NCBI GenBank assembly: GCA_002695025.1
Contig: NZNV01000033.1
Location: 1 to 64,000 of the forward strand
DNA length: 64,000 nt
Direction: 5' to 3'
Origin: Owenweeksia sp.
Lineage (GTDB): Bacteria; Bacteroidota; Bacteroidia; Flavobacteriales; Schleiferiaceae
Made by a program: the position numbers and the translations under genes. A model generated the notes under the pieces. That model was not told the origin of the DNA. It worked only from the letters and a program-made list of their open reading frames with translations, and searched no databases. This document shows positions 31,715-59,104 of the stretch, piece after piece (position 1 is the first letter of the stretch; each line of letters opens with the position of its first letter).

Positions 31715-34204
31715 CTATTCCTTCATTATTTTTTGCACGGAGGTGGTTCCATCTTCAAACTGCAGTTGTACCAGGTAAACCCCGGTTGGCAATTCAGCTA
31801 TATCGATGCTGTACCATTCCCGGGTAATATCCTTAAGCTTTACACCGTTCATGGTGAACATCCGTACTGTTTGGATGGCCAGCTCTTCACCCTCCCGGAT
31901 AAAGAGCCGCGTACGGGCTGGGTTGGGATAGATAAATGCCTGTGGAGACTTTGTTTCTTCCCTCAGGGACACTACGTTCTCCAAACAGCCTTCATTATTT
32001 GCAGCGTAAAAACTACGCAGGTCCGCAGCCCTGGATTTAAGCAGATTCAGTGATGCCATGAAATCCGGAGAGCTTTGATCACGCGCCTGTAAAAAAGCGA
32101 TCTCAAAACAATAACTCTCATTGTCCTGCAAGGTAACCTCAGACCCCACCCCTAAACTTCTCATATCCCCTTCCAGGTAGACCGGCTGGAACCACTGGTC
32201 CTTATCATTAAAATGGAAATTGGTGGCGGGGTAACTGCCCATAGGATCATAACCGTCACCATTACGGTTATTGCTGGGCCCGGAAGGGTTTTCGAGACGT
32301 AATAATGATCCATCTAACCACTTCTGATCCATATAATTTATAAAATTTGCGGCATTCTCAGGAGCATGCATTGCATCTGGTCCGTTAAGCGAATAGGAAA
32401 GGTAATTCAGGGTGCCCCGCAATGAGTCCGAAAGGAAAAGAATACCTGAGGCCGGGGGGAAGGCTCCAAATCCCAAGGGTCCTTCATCATTGCTATCCCC
32501 ATTATAGCTGTACATCAGGTTTAACCGGCTATCACAGCCTACACGGTCATCCCATGGAGCCCCAAGGTCAAAATCACTCCAAAAGCCCGTTTTGAAATTG
32601 GTTAGTGTAGTCCCGGAGCGATTGAAAATGCGGTACCCCAGGAAGATAGTATTAGCCAGGGCTTCATCCGTAGTATCAAAGGCATAAGCCATACAATGTA
32701 TCTCCACCCCAACAGGCACACTTTCCGTTTGTAAGGATAGCCCACGGGTATCATTGATTATAAAATAGATAGCTTCATCTCCTTTGATATAGGGATATTC
32801 GCCCATATAGGGTTCATAAATACCGTTGTTGTTCAGGTCTTCAAAGGGCGCCAGGACGGGAGCCTCTCCTTTCAGCACATCGCCATTGCCCGGCCAGTTT
32901 AAGATTGCCTCGGGAATACTATAACCGGGAGTATTGTAATTAGCTTTGAAATCGGCAATCTGTGCTTTATTTACCTTCCACACACGGTCGTAACGATGGA
33001 TGTAATCAGAATCGTAGAGACCGGATACCGGTCCGGAGTTAAAATCGCGAAGAAGTGCATAGGTAGCTGCGGAAACTTTTTCGTTTCCCCCCGAAGAACC
33101 TTTAACCCATAAATTGGAGGTATAAATATAGCCTGGGCCCCCGGGTACATTGGGACGAATATCACTGAACTCCTCACCTTCCGGGTTCAGGAACAAGTCT
33201 CCACCTTTGTAAAATCCCGCCTTAATTCCATTAACCGCAAGGGTACCATAGGACTCAGCACTACTAATATGTGTCTTTGAAACATAATTGGTATAAGCCA
33301 CTTCTCCCCCCAGCCAGAAAGAACCGGGTTCGCGGCTGCTGTACAGACCCGAGGACTGGCCGGAAAGACATATTTCGGCCTGTAGGGTATCTGTAATTGT
33401 GTCCCTTTTACGGATCAGGTAATTCTGCGTGTTTTTACTTAGAAAATAAAGGTCTGTACCATCAATAGTAAAATCCAAAGCGTTGCCGGGAAGGGTGCTC
33501 CATACCCCATCTTTATATTGGGAGAGTACACCTCCAAGGGCCAGGGTGTACATAGTGCCTGCCGTATCAAACTTTAATTGGTTAACCCTGCGACCAGCAA
33601 TATTGGTAGAATTATCCGGCACCGAATTCCAGGCGGTACCGTCAAAATACATGATCTGGGTAGTTTGTGAACGGCTGGAAGCATAAACATCCGTGCCGTT
33701 GGCACCAATGGCCCACACATCATTATTGGAAAAGGGGGTATATATGTTAAAGTTGACACCTGTGGCGTCCAGCATGGCTATTCCTTTATCCGTGGCCACC
33801 CACAAACGATCGTTCCCATCCACCGTGATATCATTCACATTACTGCTGGGAAGGCCGTTAAAGGGCGCAAAATTCAGCCAGTTAAAACCATCGTAGCGGA
33901 AGATACCGCTTTCTTCTGTGGCAGCCCACATATAACCGTCCGCTTCCACCAGTTTAAAAACGGGCACGGCATTGCCGGCACTGGGTAATATCGGATCGTA
34001 AACCACCGGGCTGTTCAAATCATCCATGCGAAATACGCCCCTGGTAGTAGCCACCCAGATGGTACTGTCTGTCGCTTCGTATACCTGTTGAATATGGCCA
34101 CTTCCGCCAACATATTTATAAAGGCAAGGTTGTGCGTACAAAAAGGGGCCTGTAAGAAGCAGGCTAATAAAGGTGTAAAACCTCCATTGAGTAATCGTTT
34201 TCAT
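31715..34204 (-). CDS. T9SS-exported protein with beta-propeller N-terminal domain
   Basis: 829 aa. A signal peptide (FYTFISLLLTGPFLYAQ) is followed by short repeats with the sensor-propeller pattern of two-component regulators (DSTIWVATTRGVFRMDD, GYMWAATEESGIFRYDG, DRLWVATDKGIAMLD). A long Asn/Gly/Asp-rich middle region follows, and then a T9SS type A sorting domain (YPNPARTRLFIREGEE ... PTGVYLVQLQFEDG). Expected at the cell surface or secreted. Finding a ligand-sensor propeller on a T9SS cargo instead of a histidine kinase is less usual. Function unknown. Confidence 0.88.
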   Translation of the reverse strand: MKTITQWRFYTFISLLLTGPFLYAQPCLYKYVGGSGHIQQVYEATDSTIWVATTRGVFRMDDLNSPVVYDPILPSAGNAVPVFKLVEADGYMWAATEESGIFRYDGFNWLNFAPFNGLPSSNVNDITVDGNDRLWVATDKGIAMLDATGVNFNIYTPFSNNDVWAIGANGTDVYASSRSQTTQIMYFDGTAWNSVPDNSTNIAGRRVNQLKFDTAGTMYTLALGGVLSQYKDGVWSTLPGNALDFTIDGTDLYFLSKNTQNYLIRKRDTITDTLQAEICLSGQSSGLYSSREPGSFWLGGEVAYTNYVSKTHISSAESYGTLAVNGIKAGFYKGGDLFLNPEGEEFSDIRPNVPGGPGYIYTSNLWVKGSSGGNEKVSAATYALLRDFNSGPVSGLYDSDYIHRYDRVWKVNKAQIADFKANYNTPGYSIPEAILNWPGNGDVLKGEAPVLAPFEDLNNNGIYEPYMGEYPYIKGDEAIYFIINDTRGLSLQTESVPVGVEIHCMAYAFDTTDEALANTIFLGYRIFNRSGTTLTNFKTGFWSDFDLGAPWDDRVGCDSRLNLMYSYNGDSNDEGPLGFGAFPPASGILFLSDSLRGTLNYLSYSLNGPDAMHAPENAANFINYMDQKWLDGSLLRLENPSGPSNNRNGDGYDPMGSYPATNFHFNDKDQWFQPVYLEGDMRSLGVGSEVTLQDNESYCFEIAFLQARDQSSPDFMASLNLLKSRAADLRSFYAANNEGCLENVVSLREETKSPQAFIYPNPARTRLFIREGEELAIQTVRMFTMNGVKLKDITREWYSIDIAELPTGVYLVQLQFEDGTTSVQKIMKE

Positions 34205-52865: not shown

Positions 52866-53372
52866 ATGCCGCATACTATAACCGAAGTCCTCAATCACAA
52901 CCAGGTAAGCACCCGCATCAGGCGCATGGCCTGGCAGATCTACGAAAGCAACAGTTCCAATACCGACATTATACTGGCCGGTATTGCAAATGGTGGTTAT
53001 CTGCTGGCGGAAAAAATAGTGGCTGAACTGCGCAAGATCTCTCCCCTGGAGGTGAACCTCCATAAGATCATCATGAATAAGAAAGACCCGTTGGGCAGCG
53101 AGATGCACCTGGAGCCGGAAGCCGGCAACCTGCAAGGGCGCTCTATTACCGTGGTGGATGATGTACTGAACTCCGGCAATACACTTATTTATGGCGTACG
53201 CTATTTTTTACAGTTTCCGGTGCGCGAGATCAAAACCGCAGTACTCGTAGACCGTAACCACAAGCGCTTTCCGGTAAAAGCGGATTTCAAGGGCCTTTCC
53301 CTCTCCACTTCACTGATGGAACATGTGGATGTAAACATTGAAAAAGAACCTTATTCGGTAAAGGTTTCCTGA
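52866..53372 (+). CDS. PyrR-like phosphoribosyltransferase
   Basis: 168 aa. Type I PRTase fold: RIRRMAWQIYESN, the PRPP loop ITVVDDVLNSGNTLIYG, and ILAGIANGGYLLAEKI. It resembles PyrR, the bifunctional UPRTase/pyr attenuator, but assignment within the family is uncertain. The 3' end overlaps the convergent lycopene cyclase gene by 22 nt. Confidence 0.87.
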   Translation: MPHTITEVLNHNQVSTRIRRMAWQIYESNSSNTDIILAGIANGGYLLAEKIVAELRKISPLEVNLHKIIMNKKDPLGSEMHLEPEAGNLQGRSITVVDDVLNSGNTLIYGVRYFLQFPVREIKTAVLVDRNHKRFPVKADFKGLSLSTSLMEHVDVNIEKEPYSVKVS

Positions 53373-54076
53373 GCATAGTCCAGTCCCATTTTGCGGCCAA
53401 AATACTCGTAAAGGGATACTACTCCAAGGATCAGTATCATACCGTAAAAGGCATCCTCAAAGGGAATGGTCAAAATTCGCCTTCCCATATTCTCGGTATC
53501 ATCATACCATACCACCTCTTCTTCTATGCCGAAACCGGTGAGTACACCATTCACTATAAAGAAGGGGATAAGAATAAACAGGTAGGAAAAATAGAAACGT
53601 CCTAACCAGGGTACTTTCCATACGTGGGAGTGTACATAGATGAGTACAGCCAGTATGCTGAAGGTAACTACGGTATACCAGCGGTCATAATGCACTACCG
53701 CCATGGCAGCACAAAAGCCGATGAGGAAATTACTGATCCTGAGCGCTGCTGACGACCAGATGTTACGCTTTACGGTGTAAAGCACCACCCGGTAAATAAA
53801 TACACAGCAAAAGGGGATCACAATAAAGAAAAGCCATTCCCCTAAGGGCAGGTTAGCTATATAGATCCCGCTCAGGTAACGCTCGTTAAAACCCCAAATG
53901 CCCCGGGCGGTAAAGATGATATCCCATATTATAAAGAATGTACCTACAATAGCTATGGCCGGGAACAAGGCTTTAAAGCTCCTGTAATACCGGGCACGTT
54001 TTTCAAAACTCCATAAGAACGGAAGGATCACAGAACAGAACATGATCCATAGATACAGGTATTTCGGATCAAACAA
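53351..54076 (-). CDS. Lycopene cyclase-domain protein (CrtYcd type)
   Basis: 241 aa from TTG at 54076. Seven predicted spans. It resembles the fused heterodimeric-type cyclases of Bacteroidota (YLYLWIMFCSVILPFLWSFE, FFIIWDIIFTARGIWGFN, LPLGEWLFFIVIPFCCVFIY, which recurs in form in the second half). It cyclises lycopene to beta-carotene. It lies directly after crtZ in the same frame, separated only by TGA-GTC, and crtB/crtI are not in the window. Confidence 0.9.
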   Translation of the reverse strand: MFDPKYLYLWIMFCSVILPFLWSFEKRARYYRSFKALFPAIAIVGTFFIIWDIIFTARGIWGFNERYLSGIYIANLPLGEWLFFIVIPFCCVFIYRVVLYTVKRNIWSSAALRISNFLIGFCAAMAVVHYDRWYTVVTFSILAVLIYVHSHVWKVPWLGRFYFSYLFILIPFFIVNGVLTGFGIEEEVVWYDDTENMGRRILTIPFEDAFYGMILILGVVSLYEYFGRKMGLDYAQETFTE

Positions 54077-54079
54077 GAC

Positions 54080-54565
54080 TCAGGAGGTTTGTAGTTTGCG
54101 TTTCCGTTGAGCTTCCATTTCCTGCTTAAAATATTTCCAGCTTACCACCAGCATCCCGAAGCTTTCACCCTCATGTTTACCCAGGTGTTTATGGTGCATT
54201 TTATGAGCCCTGCGTATGGCCTTCAGGTAAAGATTATCCGAATTACGGAACCACTTGAAGCGCTGGTGGATAAATACCTCATGTACCAGGAAATAGGCCA
54301 TACCATATACCGCTATGCCCGCACCAATGCTCACCGCCAGGGTATTGGCATACAAGGTACCTAACATGATGCAAAGCCAGCTGGGAATCGCGAAGATGAG
54401 AAAGAAGGTGTCGTTCTTTTCAAAAAAGCCCGGGGTTTTTACATGATGGTCTTCATGCAGGTTCCAGAGAAAACCGTGCATTACAAATTTATGGGTGGCC
54501 CAGGCCACGAACTCCATGAACCAGAAAGTCAGGAAAACCACTAAAAATATCATCCACCAACTCAT
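54080..54565 (-). CDS. crtZ: Beta-carotene hydroxylase
   Basis: 161 aa. All the di-iron histidine motifs are visible: THKFVMHGF, LHEDHH, HEVFIHQRF and RAHKMHHKH. Four membrane spans. It hydroxylates beta-carotene to zeaxanthin. With the lycopene cyclase downstream it forms the end of the yellow pigment pathway expected of this lineage. Confidence 0.95.
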   Translation of the reverse strand: MSWWMIFLVVFLTFWFMEFVAWATHKFVMHGFLWNLHEDHHVKTPGFFEKNDTFFLIFAIPSWLCIMLGTLYANTLAVSIGAGIAVYGMAYFLVHEVFIHQRFKWFRNSDNLYLKAIRRAHKMHHKHLGKHEGESFGMLVVSWKYFKQEMEAQRKRKLQTS

Positions 54566-55350: not shown

Positions 55351-55857
55351 ATGAGCACCTTTGATAAGAACTGGAGAACGATACCCACCACCCACGGACT
55401 GGCCATGCTCGGCTTGTTGGCGGCCTACTTCCTCATCATGCGCTTTGTAGGACTAGGACATGTTTATTGGCTCCGGGCGCTTAACATTCTCTTCGTCTAT
55501 TTTGTGTTGCGTAGTGCGCTGCGCACCTACCGTCAGCGTTCCCAAGCCAGTTATTATGAAGATTTCAGTGATTACTTCCGCATTGCGGTACGTACGGCTT
55601 TTGTTGGGATCGGGCTATTCTCGGTTTTCCTGGCCATCTACCTGGATCAACTGGATACGACCTTTATGCAGGAGATACTTACCGAAGAAAATATAAGCCC
55701 TTACCTCACCGCAGTGTCTGCAGCCGTGCTGATCTTTATTGAAGGAATGACCTCTGCCCTGGCCTGTGGTTACATTCTTATTCAGGTAATGAAGGCCCGC
55801 ACCGTGGAAAAGCCTTTGGAAGGCCGGAAAGACCTTCATAAAGAGACACACAGTTAG
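55351..55857 (+). CDS. DUF4199-like four-span membrane protein
   Basis: 168 aa. Four hydrophobic helices. The pattern TYRQRSQASYYEDFSDYFRI after helix two and LDTTFMQEILTEE before helix three resembles DUF4199. Function unknown. It shares its 3' four bases (TTAG) with the convergent queE stop, and is likely co-transcribed with the gene 13 nt upstream. Confidence 0.7.
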   Translation: MSTFDKNWRTIPTTHGLAMLGLLAAYFLIMRFVGLGHVYWLRALNILFVYFVLRSALRTYRQRSQASYYEDFSDYFRIAVRTAFVGIGLFSVFLAIYLDQLDTTFMQEILTEENISPYLTAVSAAVLIFIEGMTSALACGYILIQVMKARTVEKPLEGRKDLHKETHS

Positions 55858-56483
55858 GGAATGCCAATGTATTTATGGGTTTGCAGGCTGATTTGCCACT
55901 GCGGGTTTTGCATCACGTAATCCGCTATGGAAGACATCATTTCCTTGCTTCGGCTCCATTCCGGCTGCAGGAATAATTTACAGTGGTCGCCTACACGGGC
56001 GGCATGTTCTTCCGCCCATTTAAAATCGTGTTTATTGTAAATGATGATCTTCAATTCATGGGCCTGAGCATACACTTCATCTACCGGTGGTTTGGTCTTT
56101 TTGGGGGAAAGGCATATCCAGTCCCAGCTACCACTCAATTGGTAGGCACCGGAAGTTTCCAGGTGTATCTGTAAACCGCGCTCCTGTAAGGCGTGGGTAA
56201 GTGGGTCCATGTTCCAGGTAAGGGGCTCTCCCCCCGTTACCACAACGGTTTTAGAATAGTGTGCGGCCGTATCGGCAATTTGCTGTACTTCGGTGGGAGG
56301 ATGCAGATCAGGGTTCCAGCTTTCCTTAACATCACACCAGTGACAGCCCACATCGCAACCACCAATCCGGATAAAATAAGCGGCCTTGCCCGTGTGGAAA
56401 CCCTCCCCCTGTATGGTATAGAATTCTTCCATAAGGGGCACCCAAAGCCCCTGTGCAACCTTTTCCTCGTGCGCATTTACCAT
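55854..56483 (-). CDS. queE: 7-carboxy-7-deazaguanine synthase
   Basis: 209 aa radical-SAM enzyme. The CxxxCxxC motif is in GGCDVGCHWCDVKESW, and the family start (EEFYTIQGEGFHTGKAAYFIR) is clear. It forms the deazapurine ring of queuosine precursors from carboxy-tetrahydropterin. No queC/D/F is adjacent. Confidence 0.95.
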   Translation of the reverse strand: MVNAHEEKVAQGLWVPLMEEFYTIQGEGFHTGKAAYFIRIGGCDVGCHWCDVKESWNPDLHPPTEVQQIADTAAHYSKTVVVTGGEPLTWNMDPLTHALQERGLQIHLETSGAYQLSGSWDWICLSPKKTKPPVDEVYAQAHELKIIIYNKHDFKWAEEHAARVGDHCKLFLQPEWSRSKEMMSSIADYVMQNPQWQISLQTHKYIGIP

Positions 56484-56510: not shown

Positions 56511-57224
56511 TTAGCGATACTCCGGGTTGGGATGATTAAAGTTCTTCCCTTTATCCCATTCGGTTTTCTGATTGCCGTAGGCCGGAAATCCTCCCTGATC
56601 CTTTAACATGCGTGCAGTATGCATCAGGTTCCAGGTCATGAAGGTCGTATTGCGTTGGGTAAATTCGTTTTCAGGCCCCCTGGAACCTTCATCCGCATAG
56701 GAAGGGCCAGGGCCAGCTTCTCCTATCCAACCGGCATCCGCTTGCGGAGGAATGGTATACCCCAGGTGTTGCAGGCTGTATAAAATACTCATGGAGCAAT
56801 GCTTGATCCCGTCCTCGTTACCGGTAATAATACAGCCCCCCGTTTTTCCGTAGTACAAATACTGGCCTTTATCATTTAATTGGCCGGAAGCAGAGTACAG
56901 GCGCTCGATCAACAAAGAACAGACAGAAGAGCGTTCTCCCAGCCATATCGGGCTACCGATCACCAATATATCTGCCTTTAATACCTTATCCAGGATACGC
57001 GGCCAATCGTCCTTCTCATAGCCATGTTCCGTCATGTCCGGGTATATCCCAAACGCTACATCATATTCCACAAAACGGATAGGTTCCACACTAACTCCGT
57101 TCTTTTTCATGATGTCCATGGAAACCTCCATCAAGGCGTGGGTATGGGAAGGAATGGGCGCCTTTTTAAGGGTACAATTAATGAAAAGGGCTTTGAGATC
57201 ACTGAAATCCTGTGGAGTAGCCAT
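56511..57224 (-). CDS. Flavodoxin-family NAD(P)H-dependent oxidoreductase
   Basis: 237 aa. Flavodoxin-like fold: ALFINCTLKKAPIPSHT at the FMN phosphate loop, ADILVIGSPIWLGERSS, and YGKTGGCIITGNEDGIKH. Probably FMN-dependent quinone or nitro reductase; specificity unknown. It lies 27 nt upstream of queE on the same strand. Confidence 0.88.
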   Translation of the reverse strand: MATPQDFSDLKALFINCTLKKAPIPSHTHALMEVSMDIMKKNGVSVEPIRFVEYDVAFGIYPDMTEHGYEKDDWPRILDKVLKADILVIGSPIWLGERSSVCSLLIERLYSASGQLNDKGQYLYYGKTGGCIITGNEDGIKHCSMSILYSLQHLGYTIPPQADAGWIGEAGPGPSYADEGSRGPENEFTQRNTTFMTWNLMHTARMLKDQGGFPAYGNQKTEWDKGKNFNHPNPEYR

Positions 57225-57276: not shown

Positions 57277-57855
57277 TCAAAGACGGATAAGGTGCCGTAC
57301 CGAACGGTCCGCTCCTTTAATAAGATGAATAAGATAATGTCCTGCTTTCAGATGCGGAATATCCAGTTCCATCAATTCACCTTCTACCGCCCGGCTCAGG
57401 ATTACCTTACCTTGCAGGTCAGTGATCTGTATCTCTTCACCCACCCACTCGCCAAAACGGATCGTCACCTTTTCCCAGGCGGGATTGGGAAATACCTCTG
57501 CGGTGGCCAGCCCTTCCTGCTCCTGCAACCCTATATTGTTGATCTTGATAATTTTCAGCACCCTGCTCTCTCCGTTGATTTGCAATCGTAAAAAATAAAC
57601 GCCTTCCTGCAGGGTATCTCCATCGTACAAAAGGCTGATACCGTTACTGAGTACCAGGCCGTTAACAAACTGTTTGACTGTACGGCCGGTGACATCCAGC
57701 ATATCCAGGGAAACGGTGTCACTATCCAGGCTGTCTATAGCAATATGCAATTGCTGCTGGAAGGGATTGGGATAAGCCGCAAAGTAAACGGAATCATTTT
57801 GAGCATAAACGGATGCTGAAACCAGCATCAGCAGGAAAAAGGTCAGGTTTTTCAT
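57277..57855 (-). CDS. Secreted protein made of two tandem T9SS type A sorting domains
   Basis: 192 aa. A signal peptide (FFLLMLVSASVYAQ) is followed at once by a first sorting-domain-like unit (about 25-106: FAAYPNPFQQQLHI, VTGRTVKQF, LQEGVYFLRLQINGES) and a second (about 117-192: VFPNPAWEKVTIRF, DLQGKVILSR, LKAGHYLIHLI). The second is at the C-terminus as required for T9SS export; the first is in the position of cargo. I see no other domain. Either the cargo domain was lost or the repeated unit has its own role. Confidence 0.85.
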   Translation of the reverse strand: MKNLTFFLLMLVSASVYAQNDSVYFAAYPNPFQQQLHIAIDSLDSDTVSLDMLDVTGRTVKQFVNGLVLSNGISLLYDGDTLQEGVYFLRLQINGESRVLKIIKINNIGLQEQEGLATAEVFPNPAWEKVTIRFGEWVGEEIQITDLQGKVILSRAVEGELMELDIPHLKAGHYLIHLIKGADRSVRHLIRL

Positions 57856-57866
57856 AGCCCCAAACT

Positions 57867-57893
57867 ACAAAAAACCCGGCACAGGGCCGGGTT
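57867..57893 (-). terminator. Terminator of C1 peptidase gene
   Basis: AACCCGGC and GCCGGGTT form an 8-bp stem with a 5-nt loop. The A run before it reads as a T tract on the minus strand. It follows the C1 peptidase stop by about 25 nt. Confidence 0.88.
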
Positions 57894-57916
57894 CAATGGT
57901 ATATTTTAACTTTCTC

Positions 57917-59104
57917 TTAAAGGCTGATCTTCTTTTTGATATCCTTAGATACCACGTCTTTATGCACCAATATGGAGATGGTCTTGTACTTCACAAAGGA
58001 CTTGGAAGCGTAGATATAACCGCTGCGCTTATCATTTTCACGGTCGCCCCAGCTATTCTTTACAATGTAATACTCGGTACCGTTCTGGTCTTTTACCTTT
58101 CCGGTGATCTGCATACCATGATCATCGGTGGTTTCATAATTATCATAATCGTCCTGACGCATTTCCTGGGTAACCACCAGTTCGTCCTTAGGACCATCAA
58201 ACATGGCAGCGCGCTCTTCCTTGCTCATATCGGCATAGGGTGTAAGGGGCGCAATGGCCAGGCCGTTCTTCAGGGAAAAACCTTTTTCACTTACATCCGT
58301 AGCCCAGCTTACGGTATAACCTTTATTCAGGCTTTCATCCAGCACATTCATCATCTCATCCAGGGGAACGTTATAACTCAGGCCCCACGTCCAGTTATCC
58401 GGAACCTCTATCATCATAGGCTGGTAAAAAGGCTTGTGGTTAAAGGAGGTGATCTGAACGTAATCATCCGGGTTAATACCAATATACTCATCCGCAAAGC
58501 TGCGGGGCGTATAGGTTTTACCTTGGTAGGTAAATTCCTCAGGATAGGTTCCCAGGTAGGCATCAAGCGTGGCTACAAAGGCCTTTCTCCAGGACTGGGT
58601 AAGCTTACCATTGGGGTTTTTGATCACCTGGTCCAGTTGAGCTTTCAATAAGCTTTCCAGTTCGTTGTGGTTATTCTCATCGGTGCCATAGTCCAGCCCT
58701 TCGTAAACCTCCTGGGGTACGGCCCCGTATTTACGGATCACATACAGCACATCGGGAAGGGCTCCACCCTGGGCAAAATTCAGGTGCCCGTGCAGGCGAA
58801 CGTATTTCTCGGCTTTATCCAGGTACACCTGGCGCACGGTAAACATTTCGGAAAGATCAACGGGCTCCTTACCGTTTCGGATCATTTCGGTTTCTATAAA
58901 GCTGGTGGTAGCATAGCTCCAGCAGGTACCGCTCTTTCCCTGGTTCTTTACAGGAGTGGTTTCCAGGTCTATCACCGTCTCAAAAAGAAACTCTCCTTCT
59001 ACATCACTTCCATTATCTTTGATCTGGTTGATCAGATCATCCTGAGCCAAAGCGGCCCCTCCAAAGGTGAACATTAGAGCGGCTAAAAATCTTCTTAATA
59101 TCAT
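57917..59104 (-). CDS. C1-family cysteine peptidase (aminopeptidase C-like), exported
   Basis: 395 aa from the ATG at 59104, which opens a signal peptide (FLAALMFTFGGAALAQ); the frame is open 81 codons further upstream but that part lacks coding character and overlaps the divergent gene. Catalytic residues: Gln/Cys in KNQGKSGTCWSYATT, His in TDDHGMQITG, Asn in VKNSWG. Papain/bleomycin-hydrolase type (C1B), periplasmic or exported. A minus-strand terminator follows. Confidence 0.9.
   Translation of the reverse strand: MILRRFLAALMFTFGGAALAQDDLINQIKDNGSDVEGEFLFETVIDLETTPVKNQGKSGTCWSYATTSFIETEMIRNGKEPVDLSEMFTVRQVYLDKAEKYVRLHGHLNFAQGGALPDVLYVIRKYGAVPQEVYEGLDYGTDENNHNELESLLKAQLDQVIKNPNGKLTQSWRKAFVATLDAYLGTYPEEFTYQGKTYTPRSFADEYIGINPDDYVQITSFNHKPFYQPMMIEVPDNWTWGLSYNVPLDEMMNVLDESLNKGYTVSWATDVSEKGFSLKNGLAIAPLTPYADMSKEERAAMFDGPKDELVVTQEMRQDDYDNYETTDDHGMQITGKVKDQNGTEYYIVKNSWGDRENDKRSGYIYASKSFVKYKTISILVHKDVVSKDIKKKISL

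Follow-up and report, generated by a model that had tools for sequence, protein, structure and literature searches.

The window, by which we mean the whole 64,000-nucleotide stretch of DNA analyzed here, contains a 192-codon open reading frame with an ATG start, in which a predicted Sec signal peptide is followed by two type A sorting domains of the type IX secretion system (T9SS), called CTD1 and CTD2 below (Table 1). The frame, its strand and ends, and the motifs quoted in an earlier sequence-only reading were all confirmed: YPNP at residues 28 to 31 of the protein (in CTD1), FPNP at residues 122 to 125 (in CTD2), the turns DVTG and DLQG, and the strands GVYFL and GHYLI. That reading had described a protein with two type A sorting domains but without a cargo domain of any other kind, which the family searches bear out. 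Searched separately, both halves, including the first, exceed the curated cut-offs of TIGR04183 (23 bits; CTD1, 40.0 bits, and CTD2, 33.8 bits) and of PF18962 (gathering threshold, 27 bits; 39.9 and 43.2 bits, respectively). With the first half inside the family, the refuting condition named in that reading is not borne out. Only these two families scored above cut-off, and the search revealed no further domain in the 192-aa protein.

Table 1. Features of the two-CTD locus and of the remainder of the window discussed in the text
Feature	Position	Strand	Description and basis
Two-CTD gene	57277..57855	-	Signal peptide and two T9SS type A sorting domains, 192 aa; ORF; TIGR04183/PF18962 matches; orthologue L009:1480-2061:-
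Sec signal peptide (predicted), ~residues 1-18	57802..57855	-	By eye: Lys, hydrophobic core, AxA-like end; MKNLTFFLLMLVSASVYA/Q, orthologue MKNLILFLLLSLGMGHLSA/Q
CTD1 (first sorting domain), residues 27-104	57544..57777	-	LKIIK C-terminal motif kept despite internal place; TIGR04183 38.6-40.0 bits; AlphaFold model; PDB matches
IGLQE junction, residues 108-112	57520..57534	-	Ahead of CTD2; IGLSE in orthologue; loose form common in genome
CTD2 (second, C-terminal sorting domain), residues 121-190	57286..57495	-	Protein end ...HLIRL; PF18962 43.2 bits, TIGR04183 33.8 bits
Terminator-like hairpin and T run	57872..57894	-	Between upstream peptidase gene and two-CTD gene; consensus match; hairpin at same place in congener
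Secreted C1-type cysteine peptidase (putative), upstream neighbour	57917..59086	-	Name recognized from sequence; 88% identical in congener
Flavodoxin/NADPH-FMN-reductase-like gene (putative), downstream neighbour	56511..57224	-	Name recognized from sequence; same order in congener
QueE-like radical SAM gene (putative), after flavodoxin-like gene	55854-56483		Name recognized from sequence; same order in congener
Putative lycopene-cyclase-type membrane protein and beta-carotene hydroxylase genes, adjacent	53351-54565	-	Recognized from sequence; lycopene-cyclase-type gene 83% identical in congener
Type A sorting domain of another protein	31718-31933	-	Ends an 834-aa frame

The source genome (4.46 Mb in 41 contigs, 99.99% complete) encodes the T9SS core, with SprA at 2663 bits and the PorU sortase at 1289 bits. 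Its type A CTD matches that exceed the cut-off number at least 150, and among the matches listed, the gene studied here is the only open frame with two CTDs. The protein resembles ordinary type A cargo in having a Sec signal peptide (predicted by eye) and a C-terminal type A CTD with its motifs and junction, in a genome with SprA and PorU. Unlike such cargo, it has no enzymatic, adhesive, or repeat passenger, as its other domain is a second CTD. CTD1 itself lacks the C-terminal position expected of a type A sorting domain, being followed by a linker and CTD2.

The congener G002 (an uncultured Cryomorphaceae MAG, contig CAKZJV010000007.1) encodes a homologue of the same two-domain layout and nearly the same length (193 aa, 36% identical) between the same genes, the C1-type peptidase gene upstream and the flavodoxin-like and QueE-like genes downstream. 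Synteny with G002 extends from about 47 kb to 63 kb of the window. Since each domain is significant independently and the syntenic orthologue has the same two domains, the tandem arrangement is more than chance. The peptidase gene occurs in 77 of the 88 family genomes, with other genes downstream of it in those inspected, and is a family-wide gene that is not specific to this locus. The flavodoxin-like gene likewise has different neighbours elsewhere in the family. Cotranscription with the peptidase gene was considered and is disfavoured, as a terminator-like hairpin lies between the two genes in both species and the peptidase is found family-wide without the two-CTD gene. A scan for sigma-70-like promoters, which does not cover Bacteroidota promoters, yielded none at the gene.

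A scan of named genomes with a two-row alignment picked up the G002 orthologue; the other frames read out from that scan are single-CTD proteins with other sequence in front, and the same scan with the single protein as the query found nothing. There was no comparable full-length match in the 88 family genomes or in 395 genomes sampled from the order and 395 sampled from the phylum. These searches scored the best-scoring candidates per genome with a query specific to these two orthologues, so that unrelated tandem-CTD proteins could escape them. A plasmid search returned two matches, both single-domain only. Three further candidates were set aside: a protein at contig 29:205115 with 28% identity over residues 8 to 190 has a single CTD preceded by a part that is not a CTD, and frames of 185 aa in G004 and 118 aa in G005 are not two-CTD proteins. 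In the other congener, G001, the contig stops after 450 bp downstream of the peptidase gene that contain no such gene, and a flavodoxin gene is likewise missing from what was found there; loss, rearrangement, or an assembly gap may each account for this. Known members thus number two, in the source genome and G002, and on the strength of these searches the gene is lineage-restricted.

Comparison of the two species provides a measure of whether the gene is maintained. The flanking genes compared are 60 to 89% identical, with synonymous sites near or beyond saturation. When a frame of the same length was evolved neutrally in simulation to 1.3 substitutions per site, it acquired about nine in-frame stops and was open in 0.03% of runs; the synonymous sites of the neighbouring genes have reached or passed this level of divergence. 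The frame, start, signal peptide, length (192 and 193 aa), and both domains are nonetheless intact in both species, which argues from sequence that selection has kept the frame at least until recently and that this is a real, kept gene rather than a recent remnant. The protein changes quickly, with a dN of about 0.73, compared to 0.08 to 0.35 in the flanking genes. Identity to the orthologue is 37% for CTD1 and 28% for CTD2, versus 44 to 81% for five other orthologous cargo CTDs compared over their last 80 residues, a set from which a 24% pair (taken as non-orthologous) and an anomalous 99% pair were left out. A 691-aa T9SS cargo protein on contig 32:13770-15900 (L148) of the source genome is 99% identical to its counterpart on G002 contig 8:10080-12200 (L147). 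Other compared orthologues of these species are far less alike (about 44 to 89%), and the near-identity would stem either from recent transfer or from a misbinned contig.

These data bear on the suggestion, made in the sequence-only reading, that the gene is the remnant of a deleted cargo gene. In its broader form, the gene would be fading, either as what is left of a larger T9SS protein or as two CTD pieces brought together by deletions, and would be heading for loss. The fast evolution of the protein, the lack of an identifiable passenger, and its presence in only two genomes fit such a history. However, the corresponding locus of the congener encodes an intact protein that matches in length and layout, at a divergence that has saturated synonymous sites and that neutral frames would not survive. 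In addition, the signal peptide is joined directly to CTD1 in both species, so any deletion predates their split. We therefore disfavour the remnant and consider a fading gene unlikely.

The AlphaFold model of CTD1 (mean pLDDT, 95.8) is a seven-stranded CTD sandwich; as its alignment was made of 16 other CTDs, the model supports the fold without being independent proof of it. Among solved structures, its highest T9SS match is the CTD of PorU (Z, 11.1; 84 residues; rmsd, 2.3; 21% identity), followed by those of mirolase (10.3), NucA (9.8), and PorZ (9.1). The matched NucA CTD is the one bound in the T9SS complex. Other Ig-like domains match the model at equal Z, so the CTD fold alone is not specific. 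The full-length model is of low confidence (pLDDT, 62.5; pTM, 0.42); it has seven plus seven strands, and what it matches in the PDB are tandem Ig folds of a generic kind.

The PorU match raises the question of whether the protein might escape the processing that ordinary cargo undergoes, keep its CTDs, and influence the T9SS, either as a regulator or as an attachment-complex accessory. PorA relays a signal in this manner, and PorZ and PorU have retained CTDs. The CTD1 model matches the CTD folds of both of the latter, with the retained CTD of PorU at the top. However, both are large proteins of the attachment complex in which the CTD is kept, and the Z gap between PorU and the cleaved CTDs of mirolase and NucA is only about one unit, so that the model shows no preference for retained over cleaved CTDs. 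PorA (PGN_0123 of Porphyromonas gingivalis) is likewise small, being a secreted 246-aa protein of one short domain and a CTD that affects PorXY-SigP signalling and is at the surface even in T9SS mutants (PMC7712824). Its first domain is FimH-like, whereas that of the two-CTD protein belongs to the CTD family, which places the latter outside the PorA type, and nothing observed here points to a role in such signalling. The gene is also absent from nearly all of the T9SS-bearing relatives searched, no T9SS machinery gene was seen adjoining it, and its rate of evolution is high for a component of the machinery. A function in the secretion apparatus thus appears quite unlikely.

The sequence-only reading had also proposed that the only thing exported would be another copy of the sorting domain. 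This is misleading, as CTD1 is not a copy of CTD2. When each half was ranked by similarity in a set that comprised 40 further CTDs from the source genome and the halves of the orthologue, CTD2 was 43rd of 43 for CTD1, and CTD1 was 42nd of 43 for CTD2. As the two are among the least alike of the CTDs compared, and not each other's closest relatives, an internal tandem duplication is rejected. The nearest sequences to CTD1 are its orthologue and then mostly longer CTDs of about 79 residues that end large proteins, while those nearest to CTD2 are its orthologue and ordinary CTDs at almost equal scores. The two domains also differ in what precedes them. Of 39 other proteins checked, 29 have an IGLxE-type junction, in a loose form, ahead of their CTD, and such a junction is found ahead of CTD2 in both species. 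No such junction precedes CTD1, where only QNDSVYFAA separates the signal peptide from YPNP; the signal peptide joins CTD1 directly in both species (QNDS...). Since the junction lies ahead of CTD2 only, the sequence places CTD2 in the position of the signal and CTD1 in that of the passenger.

CTD1 keeps the C-terminal motif of a CTD (LKIIK; LKLIK in the orthologue), and in P. gingivalis the extension of a CTD at its C terminus by His tags is tolerated and does not abolish function (PMC11285876). Taken together, these observations allow that CTD1 might still be a readable signal. If both CTDs were active, one chain could engage the translocon or shuttle twice and modulate secretion as a natural T9SS regulator or plug, which we regard as very improbable. 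The decoy or plug of the sequence-only reading is related: a spare CTD would occupy the translocon or the PorV shuttle and so throttle secretion or seal the pore. A chain bearing two CTDs might in principle bind at two shuttle sites, and there is a solved structure of a translocon-bound CTD (8glk), which the model matches. Nothing observed here points directly to such an action, however, and most relatives with a similar cargo load are without the gene. A throttle would also need to be abundant, as the genome encodes at least 150 other CTD clients. It is highly unlikely that the protein works in this way.

Small T9SS-related proteins need not be secreted by the T9SS, as illustrated by Fjoh_0547 of Flavobacterium johnsoniae. 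This CTD protein, quoted in PMC7712824, is too small at 112 aa to hold a large cargo, and it turns up in the medium when sprA or porV is mutated. On that precedent, and given its small size, the two-CTD protein could be a two-Ig protein that is periplasmic or passively released, outside the T9SS. The resemblance is limited by length, as the 112 aa quoted for Fjoh_0547 fit one CTD only and the protein studied here has two. Moreover, both of its domains exceed the CTD thresholds, the junction and position of CTD2 are canonical, and a T9SS is present. A protein that does not use the T9SS is therefore rather improbable.

The likeliest reading, slightly more probable than not, is that the gene encodes a small, lineage-restricted T9SS surface client, with CTD2 serving as the working signal and CTD1 as its Ig-like passenger. 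The signal peptide would carry the protein through Sec. CTD2 and its IGLxE-type junction would then direct it to SprA and on to the PorU/PorV attachment complex, as its family membership and the presence of SprA and PorU in the genome would suggest. Once PorU had removed CTD2, CTD1 (about 10 kDa) would stay at the surface or enter the medium, and its role there may be a binding or structural one. CTD1 would thus be an Ig-like domain recruited from the CTD superfamily, in the place held by the IgSF domain in the tail of RgpB. In that P. gingivalis gingipain, a flexible linker connects the CTD to another Ig-like domain ahead of it, and the two together govern processing (PMC4804311). Both proteins have two consecutive Ig-like sandwiches of which the last is the CTD. 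In the two-CTD protein nothing precedes the pair, whereas in RgpB a catalytic domain lies ahead of it, and the first Ig domain of RgpB is termed IgSF rather than a CTD. The LKIIK motif speaks against CTD1 as purely a passenger, which would have no need of it, and as the protein evolves fast, no conserved binding surface can be named.

We conclude that the two-CTD protein is an unusual layout of known parts and not a new system, and its more dramatic readings are unsupported. The open-access papers searched contain no report of a protein consisting only of two CTDs. T9SS proteins that are small or that consist only of a CTD have been described before, Fjoh_0547 and PorA being examples of small CTD proteins, so the step beyond them is modest. 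The interest of the protein is that it constitutes a natural minimal substrate, made up of a signal peptide, an Ig-like CTD passenger, and a CTD signal. With it, one can ask whether a CTD can serve as a passenger, whether an internal CTD is recognized, and whether PorU cuts before one CTD or both.

Small, nearly cargo-less CTD proteins are not unique to this gene in the genome; in a 142-aa protein on contig 29 (L069:776-1204, minus strand), a signal peptide and a short stretch rich in Pro and Glu are followed by a single CTD. Contig 36 of the same genome encodes four giant T9SS proteins, in frames of 2388, 2490, 3066, and 4344 aa at about 24.6, 32.3, 41.9, and 55.1 kb. All four lie inside about 31 kb, and their CTDs are very similar.
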